From assembly GCA_028287785.1 (NCBI GenBank), contig JAQBOZ010000019.1:62001-126000 (forward strand): a DNA stretch of 64,000 nt. The letters are read 5' to 3'. A model generated the notes under the pieces. It was given only the letters and a program-made list of their open reading frames with translations. It was not told the origin of the DNA and made no database searches. Positions within the stretch are counted from its first letter, which is position 1; every line of letters starts with the position of its first letter. Shown one piece after another: positions 5,976-53,539 of this stretch. The position numbers were made by a program, and so were the translations under genes. This DNA comes from Chlorobiota bacterium (GTDB taxonomy: Bacteria > Bacteroidota > Ignavibacteria > OLB7).

Positions 5976-6406
5976 GCGCACCGAAACTCAGGGGCTTTGC
6001 CGCCTACGTCCTTCCGGCGATTCTCTACGCGCTGCTGATCTACTTCATCAGCTCCCTCTCCACGCCCCCCGCCCCGACCTACGCGCTGGAGTGGGGGGAC
6101 AAGATCAACCACACCGGGGCATTCGGCCTGATGATGCTCTTCGGCTTCCGGGCGTTTCGATGGCTGATGCCGAATCGCTCGATCGCCGCGCACCTTATCG
6201 CCGCGCTGATCTTCTGCTGCTTCTACGGCGCGTCCGATGAGTACCACCAGTCGTTCGTGCCGAACCGCACGGCCGATGTCATGGACTGGATCGCCGACAG
6301 CACCGGAGCGATTCTGGCGACGCTGTTCATCCTTTTCATCATTCGGACGCGGGCCGGGCGTCTCCTCTTCGGCAGGCCACGCCGGATCGATCCGGCAATC
6401 CGCTGA
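5972..6406 (+). CDS. VanZ-like family membrane protein
   Basis: This 144-residue protein has four predicted membrane segments (about 10-28, 50-65, 73-91 and 110-130). It contains the VanZ family signature: D-K-(I/V)-x-H near residue 48, then ASDEYHQSFVPNRTADVMDW at about 88-107. VanZ relatives include the teicoplanin-resistance accessory protein, but most members have no known function and resistance should not be inferred. The start overlaps the nnr stop by four bases (ATGA). The same pairing is not diagnostic of a pathway, and coupling with nnr may be only transcriptional. Confidence 0.9.
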   Translation: MSAPKLRGFAAYVLPAILYALLIYFISSLSTPPAPTYALEWGDKINHTGAFGLMMLFGFRAFRWLMPNRSIAAHLIAALIFCCFYGASDEYHQSFVPNRTADVMDWIADSTGAILATLFILFIIRTRAGRLLFGRPRRIDPAIR

Positions 6407-6473
6407 CTCGATCGGCAGCCCGTCATCGCGGCGATCGTTTGACGGACGGAACATCCCTCGTATGTTATCCACG

Positions 6474-7412
6474 ATGAACCGACAAGCTCGCACAATCCTC
6501 CTCATCTTCTGGCTGGCGCTCCCGGTCATCGCCTCGGCGCAACCGGCGACCCCGCCCCTCACCGGCGTTCTCGATCTCGATGTCCGCTCCGGCCTTCGTC
6601 AGCCGGCCAGCCCGAACGCTCCCGCGCTCCCGTTTCCGCTGGACAGCATCGGGAACGATCATCACGCGAAGTCGGTATGGCTGGCCGGTGGATTGTCCGC
6701 CCTGCTCCCCGGCGCGGGGCAGTTGTACGCGGATGCTCCGCTCTGGCGAACCATTCTCTATGGAACGATAGAGGCGGCGGGATGGACGGTCTACGGCATC
6801 TATAACGCCCGCGGCAATCAGGCCACAAGCGATTTCCAGGACTACGCGGACGCGCACTGGGACGTGGCGCGCTACGTGGACTGGATCGCGGCGAACTACC
6901 AGCACTGGTCATCCACGGATGTGGACAGGACGGCGGCGGCGGCGGCGCTGGCGACGATCTACACATCGAACGATCCATCGCTTCCCGGATGGAAGCGGAT
7001 CGATATCGCCGAGCTTCACAAGCTGGAACGCGCGGTCACGGGGGGATTCTCCCACACACTTCCGGCCCACGGCGATCAGCAGTACTACGAGGAGCTTGGA
7101 AAGTACGTTCAGTACAGGGCCGGATGGGACGATCACGACGCAATGGCTGACACGGTGATCTACGATCCGGCGCGGGTGACGGCGCATAACCTGGAATACA
7201 CCGCCGACCGTCGCGACGCGAACAATCTTCTGGGCATCGCCGGGACCGCGCTTGGCGCCGTGGTGCTCAACCACGTGGTGAGCCTGGTGGACGCGGCGCT
7301 GGCGGCGCGGAGCTACAACGCATCGCTCCGCTCGACCGTGCGGGGGGAACTGCTGCCGGACGGCACGCGATCGACCATCGTCGGCCTCGAAATACGGATC
7401 GGATTCCGGTGA
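6474..7412 (+). CDS. Exported protein with DUF5683-like region
   Basis: About 312 residues from the ATG at 6474, which begins a signal peptide (MNRQARTILLIFWLALP, cut near ASAQ). An ATG four codons upstream at 6462 is an alternative start. After about 55 residues there is a hydrophobic stretch, SVWLAGGLSALLPGAGQLYA, typical of DUF5683 proteins of Bacteroidota. A polar middle region and a second hydrophobic segment near the C-terminus (LLGIAGTALGAVVLNHVVSL) follow. The end reads like a β-strand (VGLEIRIGFR), which would suit an envelope protein. No enzymatic motif is visible and the function is unknown. The next gene starts 132 bases downstream. Confidence 0.8.
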   Translation: MNRQARTILLIFWLALPVIASAQPATPPLTGVLDLDVRSGLRQPASPNAPALPFPLDSIGNDHHAKSVWLAGGLSALLPGAGQLYADAPLWRTILYGTIEAAGWTVYGIYNARGNQATSDFQDYADAHWDVARYVDWIAANYQHWSSTDVDRTAAAAALATIYTSNDPSLPGWKRIDIAELHKLERAVTGGFSHTLPAHGDQQYYEELGKYVQYRAGWDDHDAMADTVIYDPARVTAHNLEYTADRRDANNLLGIAGTALGAVVLNHVVSLVDAALAARSYNASLRSTVRGELLPDGTRSTIVGLEIRIGFR

Positions 7413-10037: not shown

Positions 10038-10729
10038 CAGTTCCCCCCGATGAATTGATCGATCACATCCTCTTCGAGAAGGGACTCGCAGAGGTCGTCG
10101 GGGAGATGATCGCTCAGCTCGGCCGCGCTCAGCACGCCGGTGGCGACCGCGAGCGAGCGGATTCCCCAGGCGCGCGCGCAGGAGATATCGCGGTGGGAAT
10201 CCCCCACGATCATCGTATCGCCATAATCGAACGCATCGCCCCAGTGGTGCCGCGCCCGTTCGAGCGCGATCGGCGGCAGCTCATCGCGGATGACGGCATC
10301 GGAGCCGAACGAGCCGATGGGGAAGAAGCGGTTGAGATCGTGCGGGGCAAGCTTCATCCGGGCGGCGCGCTCCAGGTTGCCGGTAAGGAGCCCGAGGCGC
10401 ACATCATCGCGAAGCGCCAGCCGTTCCAGAAGATCCCGCACGCCGGGGAGCAGCTCGATGGTCTCCGCGCTGAGATGCCGTTCCCAGTTCTCCAGGAGGA
10501 TCGACTCCATCAGCGCGATCCGCTCCGGCAGCCCATCGCCGGCGCATCCGGCGGCGGCGCACAGCTCCCGCATGATCTGCCGGTCGGTCTTGCCGTGCAG
10601 CTCAAGACTGGGGAGATCATCATCGCGATCCAGCGCCCGGGCGACCACATCGCGGATCACGGCGCGGGTGATTGCGCCACGCACGCTTATCAACGTTCCA
10701 TCGATATCGAAGAGAATCAGTTTCATCAT
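10037..10729 (-). CDS. HAD-superfamily hydrolase, phosphoglycolate phosphatase-like
   Basis: This 230-residue protein has HAD motif I, LFDIDGTL (Asp8 nucleophile, Asp10 acid/base), a helical cap, motif II threonine in GLLTGN near 117 and the motif IV region with GDSHRDISCARAWG near 176. It resembles the Gph/PGMB group of small-molecule phosphatases, and the substrate cannot be read from sequence. Two adjacent ATGs (10729, 10726) could start translation. Its stop overlaps the namZ start, so a role in sugar phosphate clearance from cell-wall recycling is possible but unproven. Confidence 0.88.
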   Translation of the reverse strand: MMKLILFDIDGTLISVRGAITRAVIRDVVARALDRDDDLPSLELHGKTDRQIMRELCAAAGCAGDGLPERIALMESILLENWERHLSAETIELLPGVRDLLERLALRDDVRLGLLTGNLERAARMKLAPHDLNRFFPIGSFGSDAVIRDELPPIALERARHHWGDAFDYGDTMIVGDSHRDISCARAWGIRSLAVATGVLSAAELSDHLPDDLCESLLEEDVIDQFIGGN

Positions 10730-32016: not shown

Positions 32017-32178
32017 CGGCGACTACTACATGTTGAGATTGGAGGAGACAGGCCGGCGCTCCCCGTCAGGGACGAAGTGCCGGCATTGGTTCAGGATCGT
32101 GATGGCCGTGGGAGACGGCCGGAGGGATGACCGGAAGGTACGGATCAATACCGAAACGGGGACATCACGGAGACGATC

Positions 32179-32375
32179 GGTAGCAGCTCAATCTGAATCA
32201 ATGCTCTGGTTCGGTTCGGCTGAACGATCATTGATCCCCGTATCGCTCTTCAACTTCCAGAGGAGCGCACCGGTTGCAGCAATGCCACGTCCTCCATGAT
32301 ATCAAGCTCCATCGGAGCGTACCATTCCGTCTGGATATGATGATTTCAACCATCCTCTCAAACTGAGTCACCAGC
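32179..32375. mobile_element. MITE-like element type B, short copy at the priA stop
   Basis: About 197 bases flanked by the direct repeat AGACGATC (32171-32178 and 32376-32383), an 8-bp target duplication. Ends resemble the longer copy at 52646 (left GGTAGCAGCTCAATCTGAATC-like, right CTCAAACTGAGTCACC). The interior shares AAGCTCCATCGGAGCGTACC and CGCACCGGTTG; the second palindrome arm is missing, so this copy has an internal deletion. The right duplication overlaps the priA stop codon (32382-32384). There is no transposase. Confidence 0.75.
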
Positions 32376-32381
32376 AGACGA

Positions 32382-34904
32382 TCAGCCCATCCCCTGCGCG
32401 TCCACGTCGACGATGACCTGCACGGAGCTTTTGCCGTGATCGGCGCTGTAGCGCTCGTATGCCTCGGAAAAAATCCTGTAGAAGATCTTCCCACCGGGAT
32501 CGGTCACGCGGCTGTTCTTGATCACGATCTGATAGCGATACTGATTCCTGAGCTTCTCGATCAGCGCCGTGACAGGCCCCATGATATCCATCTCCGGCGT
32601 CCTGCTGGGGAGCAGCCCCCGGAACAGCCGCGCGTGCTTCTCGGTTTCCCGCTGATCCTCGGAGCGGAACTCCACCACGATAAACCGGGCAAACGGGGGA
32701 TAATTCAGCTCGCGCCGGGTTGCCAGCTCGTCGTTGTAGAGCATCGCGTAGTTCTTGAAAAAGCTCGCCTGGATGGCGGGATGCTCGGGATGCGCCGTCT
32801 GTATCACCACCTCCCCCTCCATATTGCTCCGGCGACCTGCCCGCCCCGCCACCTGCGTCAGAAGCTGGTAGGCGCGCTCGCTGGCGCGGAAATCGGGAAG
32901 GAGAAGCTGCGTGTCGGCGGAGATGACCCCCACCAGCGAGACGCGGGAGAAGTCCAGCCCCTTGGCGACCATCTGGGTGCCGAGGAGGATATCGATCTCC
33001 CCGGTCGCGAACGCCGCCAGGATCTCCCTGTGCGCCCCCTTTCTCATGGTGGTGTCAAGATCCATCCTGAGCATCTTCACCCCCGGCAACTGCGCCATCA
33101 GCTCCTCCTCCACCTTCTGCGTCCCGACCCCCGGCTGGCGGAGATCGTGATGCCCGCACATCTCGCAGCGGCGCTCCGCCTTCCGCATGAAGCCGCAGTA
33201 ATGGCAGTGCAGCTCCTCCAGCTTCTTGTGATAGGTCAGCGTCACGGCGCAGTGGGGGCAGGTCGGGGAATGAGCGCATGATGTGCACTCCAGCCGGGTG
33301 GCGAACCCACGGCGGTTCTGGAGGATGATCACCCCCTCCTTCCGCTCCACCCGCGCGCGGATATCCCCGAGCAGACGGGCGGAGATGGCCCCGCGCATCA
33401 GGTTCTGCTTCCTCGCGGTGACGGTATCCACCACAACGATCTTCGGCTCGCGGGCGTTATCCACCCGTTCGCGCAGCTCCAGCAGCGTGTACTTCCCGCG
33501 CTGGGCGTTGTAATACGATTCGATCGATGGCGTGGCGCTCCCCAGCACCGCCACGGCCCCTGACAACTGCGCGCGGACGATGCCGGCATCGCGGGCGTTG
33601 TAGCGCGGCTGCGCGTCGTACTGCTTGTAGCTCCCCTCATGCTCCTCATCCACCACCACGATGCCGATATTCCGCAACGGCGCGAAGAGCGCGGAGCGCG
33701 CCCCGATCACCACGTCGCACCCGCCGGAAGCGGCCCGCCGCCAGCCGTCGTACCGTTCCCCCGGCGACATCCGGCTGTGCAGCAGCACGATCCTGTCGCC
33801 GAACACCCCTCGGAACCGCTCCACGAGCTGGAGGGTCAGCGTGATCTCCGGCACCAGCAGCAGCGACTTCTTCCCCGCCGCTATCGCGTGCCGGATGGCC
33901 TCGATATAGACCTGCGTCTTTCCCGATCCGGTGACGCCGTGCAGCAGAAATGTCTTGAACTCCTTCTGGTCCATCGCCCCGGTGATCGCGTCGATCGCCG
34001 CGCGCTGGGCATCGTTCGGGATGATTCCCCCCTCGTGCGGCTCCAGCGTCCGCCCCCCCTGCGTCTCCTCATCGGCAAGCATCTCCTCGCGCGAGACCTC
34101 GATATCCTCCAGCTCGATCGCCCCGCGCGCGGCAAGCCCCTTCAGCGCGGAGTCGGAGGCATCGGCGGCTTCCAGGAGATCGGCGGCGAAGACGAAATCG
34201 TTTCCCACGCGCATCGACTGCGTGTAGAGAAGAAGCATGATGGCCGCCTGCTTCGGCGCGGAACGATCCAGCTCGTCGAACAGTTCGTGGATCGATTCCT
34301 CATCATCGAACAGCTCCGGCGCTATCCTGGCGCCCCGCACGGTCTTCGGCGCCGAGCGCTTTCCGCGCTCCATCTTCCTGATGATGAACCCCTTTTCCTC
34401 CAGCGATGCGAGCTGCGTGTAGAGCGCATCAGCCCCAACCTTCCGCTGGAGATAGGTGATGGTGATCCCCTTGGGATGATCGGCAAGGGCGGCGATGATG
34501 GCGGCCTGGCGCGGCGCGCTTCTGCGGAGCGCGGGAAGCTCCTCGAGCACCTCCGGCCCGGCCAGCGCTATCCGCTGCGTGGACTCCGGGGTCATCCCCT
34601 GCGGCATCATCGAGCGGAGCGTCTCGCCGATCGGCGAGACGTAGTAGTGGGTCATCCAGTCGGCGAAGCGGAGCATCTCGGGGCTGAAGAGCGGCTCGGG
34701 ATCGAGGAGATCGAGGATCGCGCGGACCTTTGCCAGATCGGTTTCCGAACGTTCCTCCACGATCACGCCGGTCAGCGTCCGCCGGCCGAACGGAACGGAG
34801 ACGCGCATGCCGAGCAGATCGAGATCGCGCCATTCCTCGGGGACCGAGTAGGTGAACGTCTTGAAGAGCGGGATGGGTAGAGCTACCTGAACAAAGTCTG
34901 ACAT
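32382..34904 (-). CDS. priA: Primosomal protein N' (replication restart helicase PriA)
   Basis: This 840-residue superfamily 2 3'-5' DNA helicase restarts stalled forks. It has the N-terminal DNA-binding region (FTYSVPEEW, FGRRTLTGVI), Walker A LLHGVTGSGKTQVY near 315, DEEH near 420, LGSATPS near 450, helicase motifs V/VI (GTQMVAKGLDF, QVAGRAGR) and the zinc region with eight Cys (CTSC...CPHC...CHYC...CEMC near 540-590). It is normal length for Bacteroidota-like PriA. A MITE-like element abuts its stop codon and a palindrome lies upstream. Confidence 0.96.
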   Translation of the reverse strand: MSDFVQVALPIPLFKTFTYSVPEEWRDLDLLGMRVSVPFGRRTLTGVIVEERSETDLAKVRAILDLLDPEPLFSPEMLRFADWMTHYYVSPIGETLRSMMPQGMTPESTQRIALAGPEVLEELPALRRSAPRQAAIIAALADHPKGITITYLQRKVGADALYTQLASLEEKGFIIRKMERGKRSAPKTVRGARIAPELFDDEESIHELFDELDRSAPKQAAIMLLLYTQSMRVGNDFVFAADLLEAADASDSALKGLAARGAIELEDIEVSREEMLADEETQGGRTLEPHEGGIIPNDAQRAAIDAITGAMDQKEFKTFLLHGVTGSGKTQVYIEAIRHAIAAGKKSLLLVPEITLTLQLVERFRGVFGDRIVLLHSRMSPGERYDGWRRAASGGCDVVIGARSALFAPLRNIGIVVVDEEHEGSYKQYDAQPRYNARDAGIVRAQLSGAVAVLGSATPSIESYYNAQRGKYTLLELRERVDNAREPKIVVVDTVTARKQNLMRGAISARLLGDIRARVERKEGVIILQNRRGFATRLECTSCAHSPTCPHCAVTLTYHKKLEELHCHYCGFMRKAERRCEMCGHHDLRQPGVGTQKVEEELMAQLPGVKMLRMDLDTTMRKGAHREILAAFATGEIDILLGTQMVAKGLDFSRVSLVGVISADTQLLLPDFRASERAYQLLTQVAGRAGRRSNMEGEVVIQTAHPEHPAIQASFFKNYAMLYNDELATRRELNYPPFARFIVVEFRSEDQRETEKHARLFRGLLPSRTPEMDIMGPVTALIEKLRNQYRYQIVIKNSRVTDPGGKIFYRIFSEAYERYSADHGKSSVQVIVDVDAQGMG

Positions 34905-49121: not shown

Positions 49122-49425
49122 GGCAGATGAGAGCAACTCGGTTTAAATCCACCCTCAGGTATGCTGAACGGTCATCCATCAACGATCTCTTCATCGCTCT
49201 TCAAGCTCCGTAGGAGCGCACCGGTTATAGTAACGATGCCCCTATTTTCACTCAAGCTCCATCGGAGCGTACCATATAAATGCGGGGATGGCACGCTCCG
49301 ATGGAGCTTTAGATCATGGAAGAGGTGATATTACCACAACCGGCTCGCCCCGATGGGCTATGAAGACTGATGCTTCACTCAGCGTACGTCGAAGACGCTT
49401 ATCTCAACCTGAGTCACTGCCGAGC
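49122..49425. mobile_element. MITE-like element type B, degenerate copy
   Basis: It contains the same nested palindrome as the intact copy at 52646. AGCTCCATCGGAGCGTACC is followed by GGCACGCTCCGATGGAGCTT; outside it lie CTTCAAGCTCCGTAGGAGCG and CCGGCTCGCCCCGATGGGCT. The ends are GGCAG...ACTCGGTTTAAATCC and TCAACCTGAGTCACTGCC, degraded relative to GGTAGTGACTCAGTTTG. I see no matching target duplication at this copy. It fills part of the 500-base gap 49013-49510. Confidence 0.6.
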
Positions 49426-52027: not shown

Positions 52028-52645
52028 ATGATTTCTTCTCATGACGATTTTTTCTTCCGGCGTTGCTCACAGCCGGCGGCTTCCTCTCATGATATTTTTT
52101 TTCTTCCGGCGTTGCTCATAACTTCCACCGTGTATATCGCTGCATGCGGTGGTGACCCTCCTTCCAACAGCAACCGTTCTCCCGATCATGCCGCTCCCCC
52201 TCTCGCTCCAGCCGAAGCGATGTCGTGTTCTATTTCGCCCACGGCCTTCAGACAATGTATTTAATGTCGCAACATCACGCGGATCTGGCGCCGGCAACCA
52301 GCACGAATATAATTGGCCCCGGCTATCTCCCGCCCCAGGCTGAGCTGGATGGACTGCGCCGGCAGAACAAACTGCGTGATCTGGGATCGAGGATCATTAT
52401 GGGTCTGGAGGCTCATGGCTTCACGATCGACGACAGCAGCGGCTCCACAACGTACTGGGAATGGAAACGTATTCCGTGCTGATTGAATCCACACGGCCCT
52501 ACAAGGGCATAACGATGGTGACAGCGCTTGATACAACCGTCAGGATCACGCCCGGAATGATGGATCTTCCAAAGGATGTGCCCGTGACGGATATCGAGTC
52601 GTATCGGCGCATGCATCAGGACTCCCCGCCTGATACCGCAATCGT

Positions 52646-52954
52646 GGTAGTGACTCAGTTTGAATCCAGTATTCCATCTGATTAACAATCAACGATCGGC
52701 GATCCATGCTTCACTCTTCAAGCTCCGTAGGCGCGCGCCGGTTGTAGCACCAATGCTCCCATCTCCCGCTCAAGCTCCATCGGAGCGTACCATCCCCGCA
52801 TCCGTGCCGAACGGTACGCTCCGATGGAGCTTCAGATCATCGAAGACGTGGCATCGCTACAACCGGTACGCCCCGATGGGGCTGGAAGGAGAGATGCCGA
52901 ATGCCCTCGATGAGTCCGAACAGCATGAACCGTATCCCAAACTGAGTCACTACC
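52646..52954. mobile_element. MITE-like element type B, 309 bp, with 8-bp target duplication
   Basis: Terminal inverted repeats GGTAGTGACTCAGTTTG and CAAACTGAGTCACTACC bound a 309-base element without coding capacity. The flanks GCAATCGT at 52638-52645 and 52955-52962 are a perfect 8-bp duplication. Inside is a 20-bp perfect inverted repeat (52772-52791 with 52813-52832, containing CTCCATCGGAGCG) and weaker outer arms, so the whole element could fold into a long hairpin. Excision of the element plus one duplication joins the flanking coding frames. Confidence 0.9.
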
Positions 52955-52963
52955 GCAATCGTC

Positions 52964-53539
52964 ATGAATCCCTGGAAGTTCGAGGCACAATCGGGAGTGA
53001 TGGAGATATGGAAACATTCTTCGTCTGCAAAAGGAACCCGCCCTGATCCCGGTGTGCGATACACGATATATTTTGACGACTACGGCGCAAAATCGATGAC
53101 ATGTTTCACCAATAAAAGCCTGGGAGGCAAAGGGGAAATGTATATACTCTTCGATCACGGCGTGGTGGTCACCTGCAACAACTCAAATGTTGCGGAAGCA
53201 CCGACCGAGCAGCCTCTTATCCGCAGGGCCACAGCAGACATCATGAACGGGCTCGCCGTGCTTCCGAGCGATATCGACCTGCTCGCAGCGGATGCAACAC
53301 GCAAGGATCTTGGAACGCAGATCATTCAGGGAAAGGAGACAAAGGGATTTTCGATAGTCAACGATGGGGGGCTGACTGACTGCCGGCAATGGAAGCGCAT
53401 TCCGTTTCGCTTCGAAGTCCCGACTCCCAATCCGAATATCCGTTGGATAACCGAAGTCACCTCACTGCAGACCTATGTTCCGGTTCCTCCCCGAGACGCG
53501 AGCTGTTCAGATATACGGCGACCGAACCTGAGCGATTGA
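52964..53539 (+). CDS. Open 3' part of the broken lipoprotein gene
   Basis: 191 codons remain open downstream of the MITE-like element (MNPWKFEAQSGVMEIWK to RRPNLSD). The ATG here comes from the middle of the ancestral gene and there is no signal peptide, so any product would be a cytosolic fragment. It carries the second copy of the repeated domain, with DLGTQIIQGKETKGF near 122-136 and WKRIPF near 149. Probably not functional. Confidence 0.45.
   Translation: MNPWKFEAQSGVMEIWKHSSSAKGTRPDPGVRYTIYFDDYGAKSMTCFTNKSLGGKGEMYILFDHGVVVTCNNSNVAEAPTEQPLIRRATADIMNGLAVLPSDIDLLAADATRKDLGTQIIQGKETKGFSIVNDGGLTDCRQWKRIPFRFEVPTPNPNIRWITEVTSLQTYVPVPPRDASCSDIRRPNLSD

Follow-up and report, generated by a model that had tools for sequence, protein, structure and literature searches.

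How did a 309-bp sequence without a gene of its own come to stand between two coding frames of a Chlorobiota genome, and which enzyme would have placed it there? In the window (the whole stretch of 64,000 nucleotides that was analysed), the sequence-only reading had described this sequence as an intact, non-autonomous transposable element inserted into a gene. Its coordinates, its 17-bp terminal inverted repeats (TIRs) and its perfect 8-bp target duplication were all exact on re-examination (Table 1), and the reported absence of an open reading frame (ORF) was borne out, in that no credible coding frame lies in the element and the ORFs that touch it either exit it or show no coding sign. Very probably, the element is a MITE belonging to a group of IS1-like transposons and owes its movement to an IS1-like DDE transposase acting in trans.

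Table 1. Positions in the window of the element, its parts, its relatives and its flanks
Feature	Positions	Strand	Basis or remark
MITE, intact, 309 bp	52646..52954	.	Perfect TIRs, exact 8-bp duplication, full-length genomic copies of 94-95% identity
Left TIR, GGTAGTGACTCAGTTTG	52646..52662	+	Matches both ends of the Verrucomicrobia element L240:962-3497 identically
Right TIR, perfect complement of the left TIR	52938..52954	-	Inverted-repeat comparison and TIR scan
Target duplication GCAATCGT, left	52638..52645	.	Exact; 8-bp duplications are general in the MITE family
Target duplication GCAATCGT, right	52955..52962	.	Exact match to the left copy
Palindromic core, nested inverted repeats 52716-52748/52856-52888 and 52769-52791/52813-52835	52716..52888	.	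Kept across copies; hairpin z -9
Second family copy, older and shortened, 197 bp	32179..32375	.	Perfect 8-bp duplication AGACGATC at 32171-32178 and 32376-32383
Third, older family copy, 293 bp	49129..49421	.	About 74% identical; without clear duplication
Left flank frame	52461..52645	+	In frame with the downstream ORF after removal of 317 bases; resembles the downstream unit's C-terminus weakly
Downstream unit (ORF 52964-53539, 191 aa)	52963..53539	+	Relative of the G001 lipoprotein, 29% identity, E 7.5e-4; L203 ORF
Upstream paralogous fragment, other frame	52225..52482	+	Decayed copy of a similar gene; local alignment 97, best of 300 shuffles 56

Structure and copies of the element

The element shows the properties by which MITEs are recognised. 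It is short (309 bp, where less than about 600 bp is expected) and lacks a transposase gene; its perfect 17-bp TIR and exact 8-bp duplication are repeated in many copies, which are dispersed over the genome; and its ends equal those of an autonomous element (L240), though one from another phylum. An autonomous partner in the same genome is usual for MITEs, although not defining, and here the host holds only a decayed 63-codon remnant. The 20-bp palindrome of the sequence-only reading is a perfect 20-bp inverted repeat, but its arms (52772-52791 and 52813-52832) lie about 21 bases apart and form the inner stem of a much longer inverted repeat, and virtually the entire 309-bp element folds up as a single hairpin (-141.6 kcal/mol, z = -9.0).

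Further genomic copies, for which a search had been proposed, proved abundant, the related copies in the host genome numbering about a hundred. When as many as 3 mismatches were allowed, the 17-bp TIR matched 4 times in the window versus 0.02 expected, and TIR-like ends numbered 217 (110+107) in the 4.75-Mb host genome versus 6 (4+2) for the reversed control; of 184 candidate loci for the family there, 40 were scored by BLAST. Full-length copies are 89-95% identical and older copies 70-80%, spread over most contigs. Many host contigs end inside MITE copies, which were seen at the starts of contigs C2, C11, C18, C23, C25 and C35 and at several contig ends, so that the assembly is constrained by the repeat and an intact partner could have been hidden. 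Contig C16 also carries two shorter elements of 178 and 139 bp (L150:922-1099 and 10105-10243) with the end variant GGTAGTGTCTCAGTTTG, which perhaps form a separate subfamily sharing its ends with L312 and L313.

Target duplications were examined in 50 distinct elements taken from retrieved genome stretches. The 8-bp flanks were exact duplicates in 18 (36%) and differed at no more than 2 positions in 31, as compared with 0 of 150 shifted-flank controls, an excess slightly flattered by an end pairing that favoured matching flanks, though by too little to explain it. The duplicated octamers differ between all copies, and some full-length copies lack a duplication. A stronger test of transposition than these flank counts is the nested case on contig C2 (L010), where a 310-bp copy lies in an older copy whose halves match family positions 1-140 and 136-309. 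The duplication at this nested insertion has 2 mismatches in 8 positions, and excising the inner copy together with 8 bp restores a 304-bp family member, such that each unbroken copy serves as an empty site.

IS1-like elements with identical or similar ends

The sequence-only reading had also called for a transposase bounded by matching ends, and one was found, albeit in another phylum. An exact scan of a bacterial genome collection with the 17-bp TIR gave matches in many phyla, among them L240, a 2536-bp Verrucomicrobia element in which both TIRs are identical to that of the MITE, the flanking duplication CATTCCGC is exact and the transposase matches the IS1-like group profile with E 3e-114. 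At the left end, the identity with the 309-bp MITE extends to 19 bp. The ends alone match, no core homology being found between the MITE and any partner element. The MITE core is one extended inverted repeat; it is not what a simple internal deletion would leave of any partner found.

Eight further transposase-bearing elements have similar ends and 8-bp duplications (L168, L177, L193, L194, L310, L312, L313 and L198). L310, L312 and L313 are located on Alphaproteobacterial plasmids, while L198, in the congener G001, is 4621 bp long with the duplication GACGGGGC and ends GGTACTGGGTCAATTTG that match those of the MITE at just 13 of 17 positions. The transposases of the group are encoded by a single ORF of about 260-340 aa, and in some cases the TIR follows the gene immediately. 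Initially the partner escaped notice because the Pfam model PF03400 covers only the C-terminus of this transposase subgroup; the group was traced from weak PF03400 matches in relatives, and a profile then built from four members placed it in 24 of 99 genomes. In the host genome (95% complete, 37 contigs) the group profile found no intact partner and the PF03400 search gave zero matches, the decayed transposase remnant (60-63 codons) lying at C35:28159-28347. Wide-flank retrieval around solo TIRs in the host and the congener recovered short elements only and no full-length one.

A 1053-bp element of another genome, G040 (L068:1501-2553), was considered as autonomous and rejected, since all that it retains of a transposase is a decayed piece and its 246-codon membrane-like ORF is unrelated; bounded by GGTAGTGGCTCAGTTTG ends, it carries cargo but no functional transposase. 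In the autonomous elements L198:8282-12902, L310:1796-5165, L313:1555-5778, L312:2267-4900 and L194:277-3328, the cargo observed is of toxin-antitoxin type (XRE-ImmA/IrrE, RES-Xre, DUF433-PIN), and L193 and L240 both encode a small coiled-coil protein that looks similar.

Among five partners tested, PF03400 (DDE_Tnp_IS1) scored 29-31 bits for L240, L310, L313 and L194 against a cut-off of 24.1, and 23.4 bits, just under it, for L177. The NCBIfam IS1 equivalog was the best match at 56-74 bits, yet below its cut-off of 100, and the partners are therefore called IS1-like and not outright IS1 members; homologues in public plasmid records are annotated "IS1 family transposase". Members of the IS1 family generate 8-9 bp target duplications and have ends of the form GG-N-N-N-TG. 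Classical IS1 uses two overlapping frames with a programmed frameshift and other IS1 members a single frame; no such overlapping pair was found in the partner elements, which have a single ORF of about 270-340 aa. All nine partner elements have 8-bp duplications, and their GGT-GTG ends and IS1-type DDE transposase likewise resemble the family, whereas their length of 2.5-4.6 kb with cargo and a transposase that opens directly with a helix-turn-helix set them apart, as the lack of any transposase does the 309-bp element. ISAba3 is an IS1-family member, and related IS have ends GGTGGTGTTTCAAAAAGTATGCTG (GGTGGTG...) and 8-bp duplications (PMC6382973).

Among described MITEs, MITEAba12 is likewise short, without an ORF, multi-copy and endowed with TIRs in common with an IS, and its copies also bear duplications only in part (40%, versus 36% exact in the 309-bp family) (PMC6382973). 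It is 113 bp long, folds weakly, and has its partner ISAba12, with 9-bp duplications, in the same genome (PMC6382973), in contrast to the 309-bp family with its long hairpin, its 8-bp duplications and an IS1-like partner absent from the assembled genome. A literature search found no description of the present MITE family; neither it nor its partner occurs in the libraries and papers that were searched, but a MITE of this kind is known and ordinary.

The description of the element as a non-autonomous transposable element is thus upheld by the hundred or so copies, their independent 8-bp duplications, the nested insertion and the finding of an element that carries a transposase between identical ends. 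In the proposed mechanism, an IS1-like DDE transposase would recognise GGTAGTG-N-CTCAGTTTG ends and move the non-coding MITE in trans, and repair of a staggered cut at the insertion site would duplicate 8 bp of target. We infer that the 309-bp copy was moved by an L240-type transposase, or by a close relative now lost from, or unassembled in, the host.

The interrupted locus

Removal of 317 bases was confirmed to rejoin the flanking frames, with 52461-52645 and 52963-53539 forming an open frame of 253 codons without a stop. The claim that the pre-insertion gene is thereby visible held only in part, because open frames of this kind are common, the locus looks decayed and a signal peptide is missing. 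Frames of at least 200 codons cross the junction in 9 of 27 copies in this GC-rich host and are mostly implausible as genes, and empty sites sought via genes split by other copies were rejected on this ground. A Pfam search of the joined frame gave no family over cut-off, and its sole relative is a single-domain lipoprotein-like protein of the congener G001 (29%); this relative has a lipoprotein signal, whereas inspection of the joined 253-aa ORF revealed no signal peptide. The match of the left part to the C-terminus of the lipoprotein unit is marginal, 7 of 300 shuffles being as good. Based on the frame-shifted upstream paralogue, the missing signal peptide and this marginal match, the MITE probably inserted into a tandem of small lipoprotein genes that was by then in decay. 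An empty site with a single GCAATCGT, which had been named as confirmation of the insertion, was not found in relatives; the host protein has no close relative.

Alternative explanations and the recurrence of palindromic cores

The host has three intact IS1595-type genes, and it is conceivable, though improbable, that one of these IS1595-family transposases, standing alone without ends of its own, moves the MITEs in trans. Duplications of 8 bp, ends starting with GG and a distantly related transposase domain are likewise found in the IS1595-type elements of class-mates, and genomes with the TIR overlap those with IS1595 transposases (9/13, Fisher p 1.4e-5). However, these same-class elements (L093, L097 and L104) end in GGTRAYTATATAC or GGTAATACGTAC, unlike the MITE TIR, which bounds IS1-like elements exactly. 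IS1595 was rejected as the partner after a scan of all IS1595 loci, both for the TIR and for their own ends, had shown none of them to be bounded by the MITE TIR. The three host genes (L056, L057 and L058, on contigs C10, C11 and C16) are single-copy and have no visible inverted repeats, and in the congener G001 two divergent IS1595-type genes lie back to back on contig C8 (L127:5115-5966 and 5984-6940); lone genes of this type are possibly domesticated.

Because the whole element forms one hairpin, it might instead be a dispersed palindromic repeat of REP/ERIC type, or an RNA-coding repeat, kept for a hairpin function and flanked by an accidental repeat. An alignment of 26 copies places the palindromic stretches among the best-conserved regions, with base pairs kept in 97.4% of cells and 5 double-changed pairs versus 1.1 in shuffles, although this excess, small and inflated by related copies, gives but a slight hint that the core is maintained. 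An Rfam search of the element returned no family over threshold. Exact 8-bp duplications that vary by copy, the nested insertion and the identical ends of a transposase-bearing element make a hairpin-function origin very unlikely, and as an alternative to transposition it is refuted by the duplications and the nested insertion. Least credible of all, and highly unlikely, is that the 8-bp repeat predates the element or that the element arose by recombination at the site; the failure to find an empty site for this locus in relatives would fit this, but different exact 8-bp duplications directly abut the TIR in 18 of 50 copies.

MITEs of Acidobacteria, FCPU426 and Chitinophaga have the same ends and unrelated cores, mostly with strong folding (z to -23), whereas two MITEs of the congener with the same ends hardly fold, so that the palindromic core recurs but is not universal. 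We tentatively suggest, as a possibility that falls somewhat short of an even chance, that one IS1-like group, whose 17-19 bp ends hardly vary and whose cargo is of toxin-antitoxin type, crosses phyla (Acidobacteria, Verrucomicrobia, Proteobacteria, Bacteroidota, FCPU426 and others) and spawns, time and again, unrelated MITE families with long palindromic cores. If this is true, a foldback core would be favoured by the IS1-like transposase, and the MITEs would be mobilisable by partners from other species.

For genomes of this group, the finding means that hairpin-rich repeats and "split genes" may be MITE insertions, whose annotation as genes or RNAs should be avoided, and many contig breaks of the host assembly fall within MITE copies. 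More broadly, a gene-less transposon family numbers about a hundred copies in a genome with no intact enzyme for it, while an enzyme with identical ends occurs in another phylum, which makes it testable whether MITE families of this sort are sustained by enzymes present only for a time.
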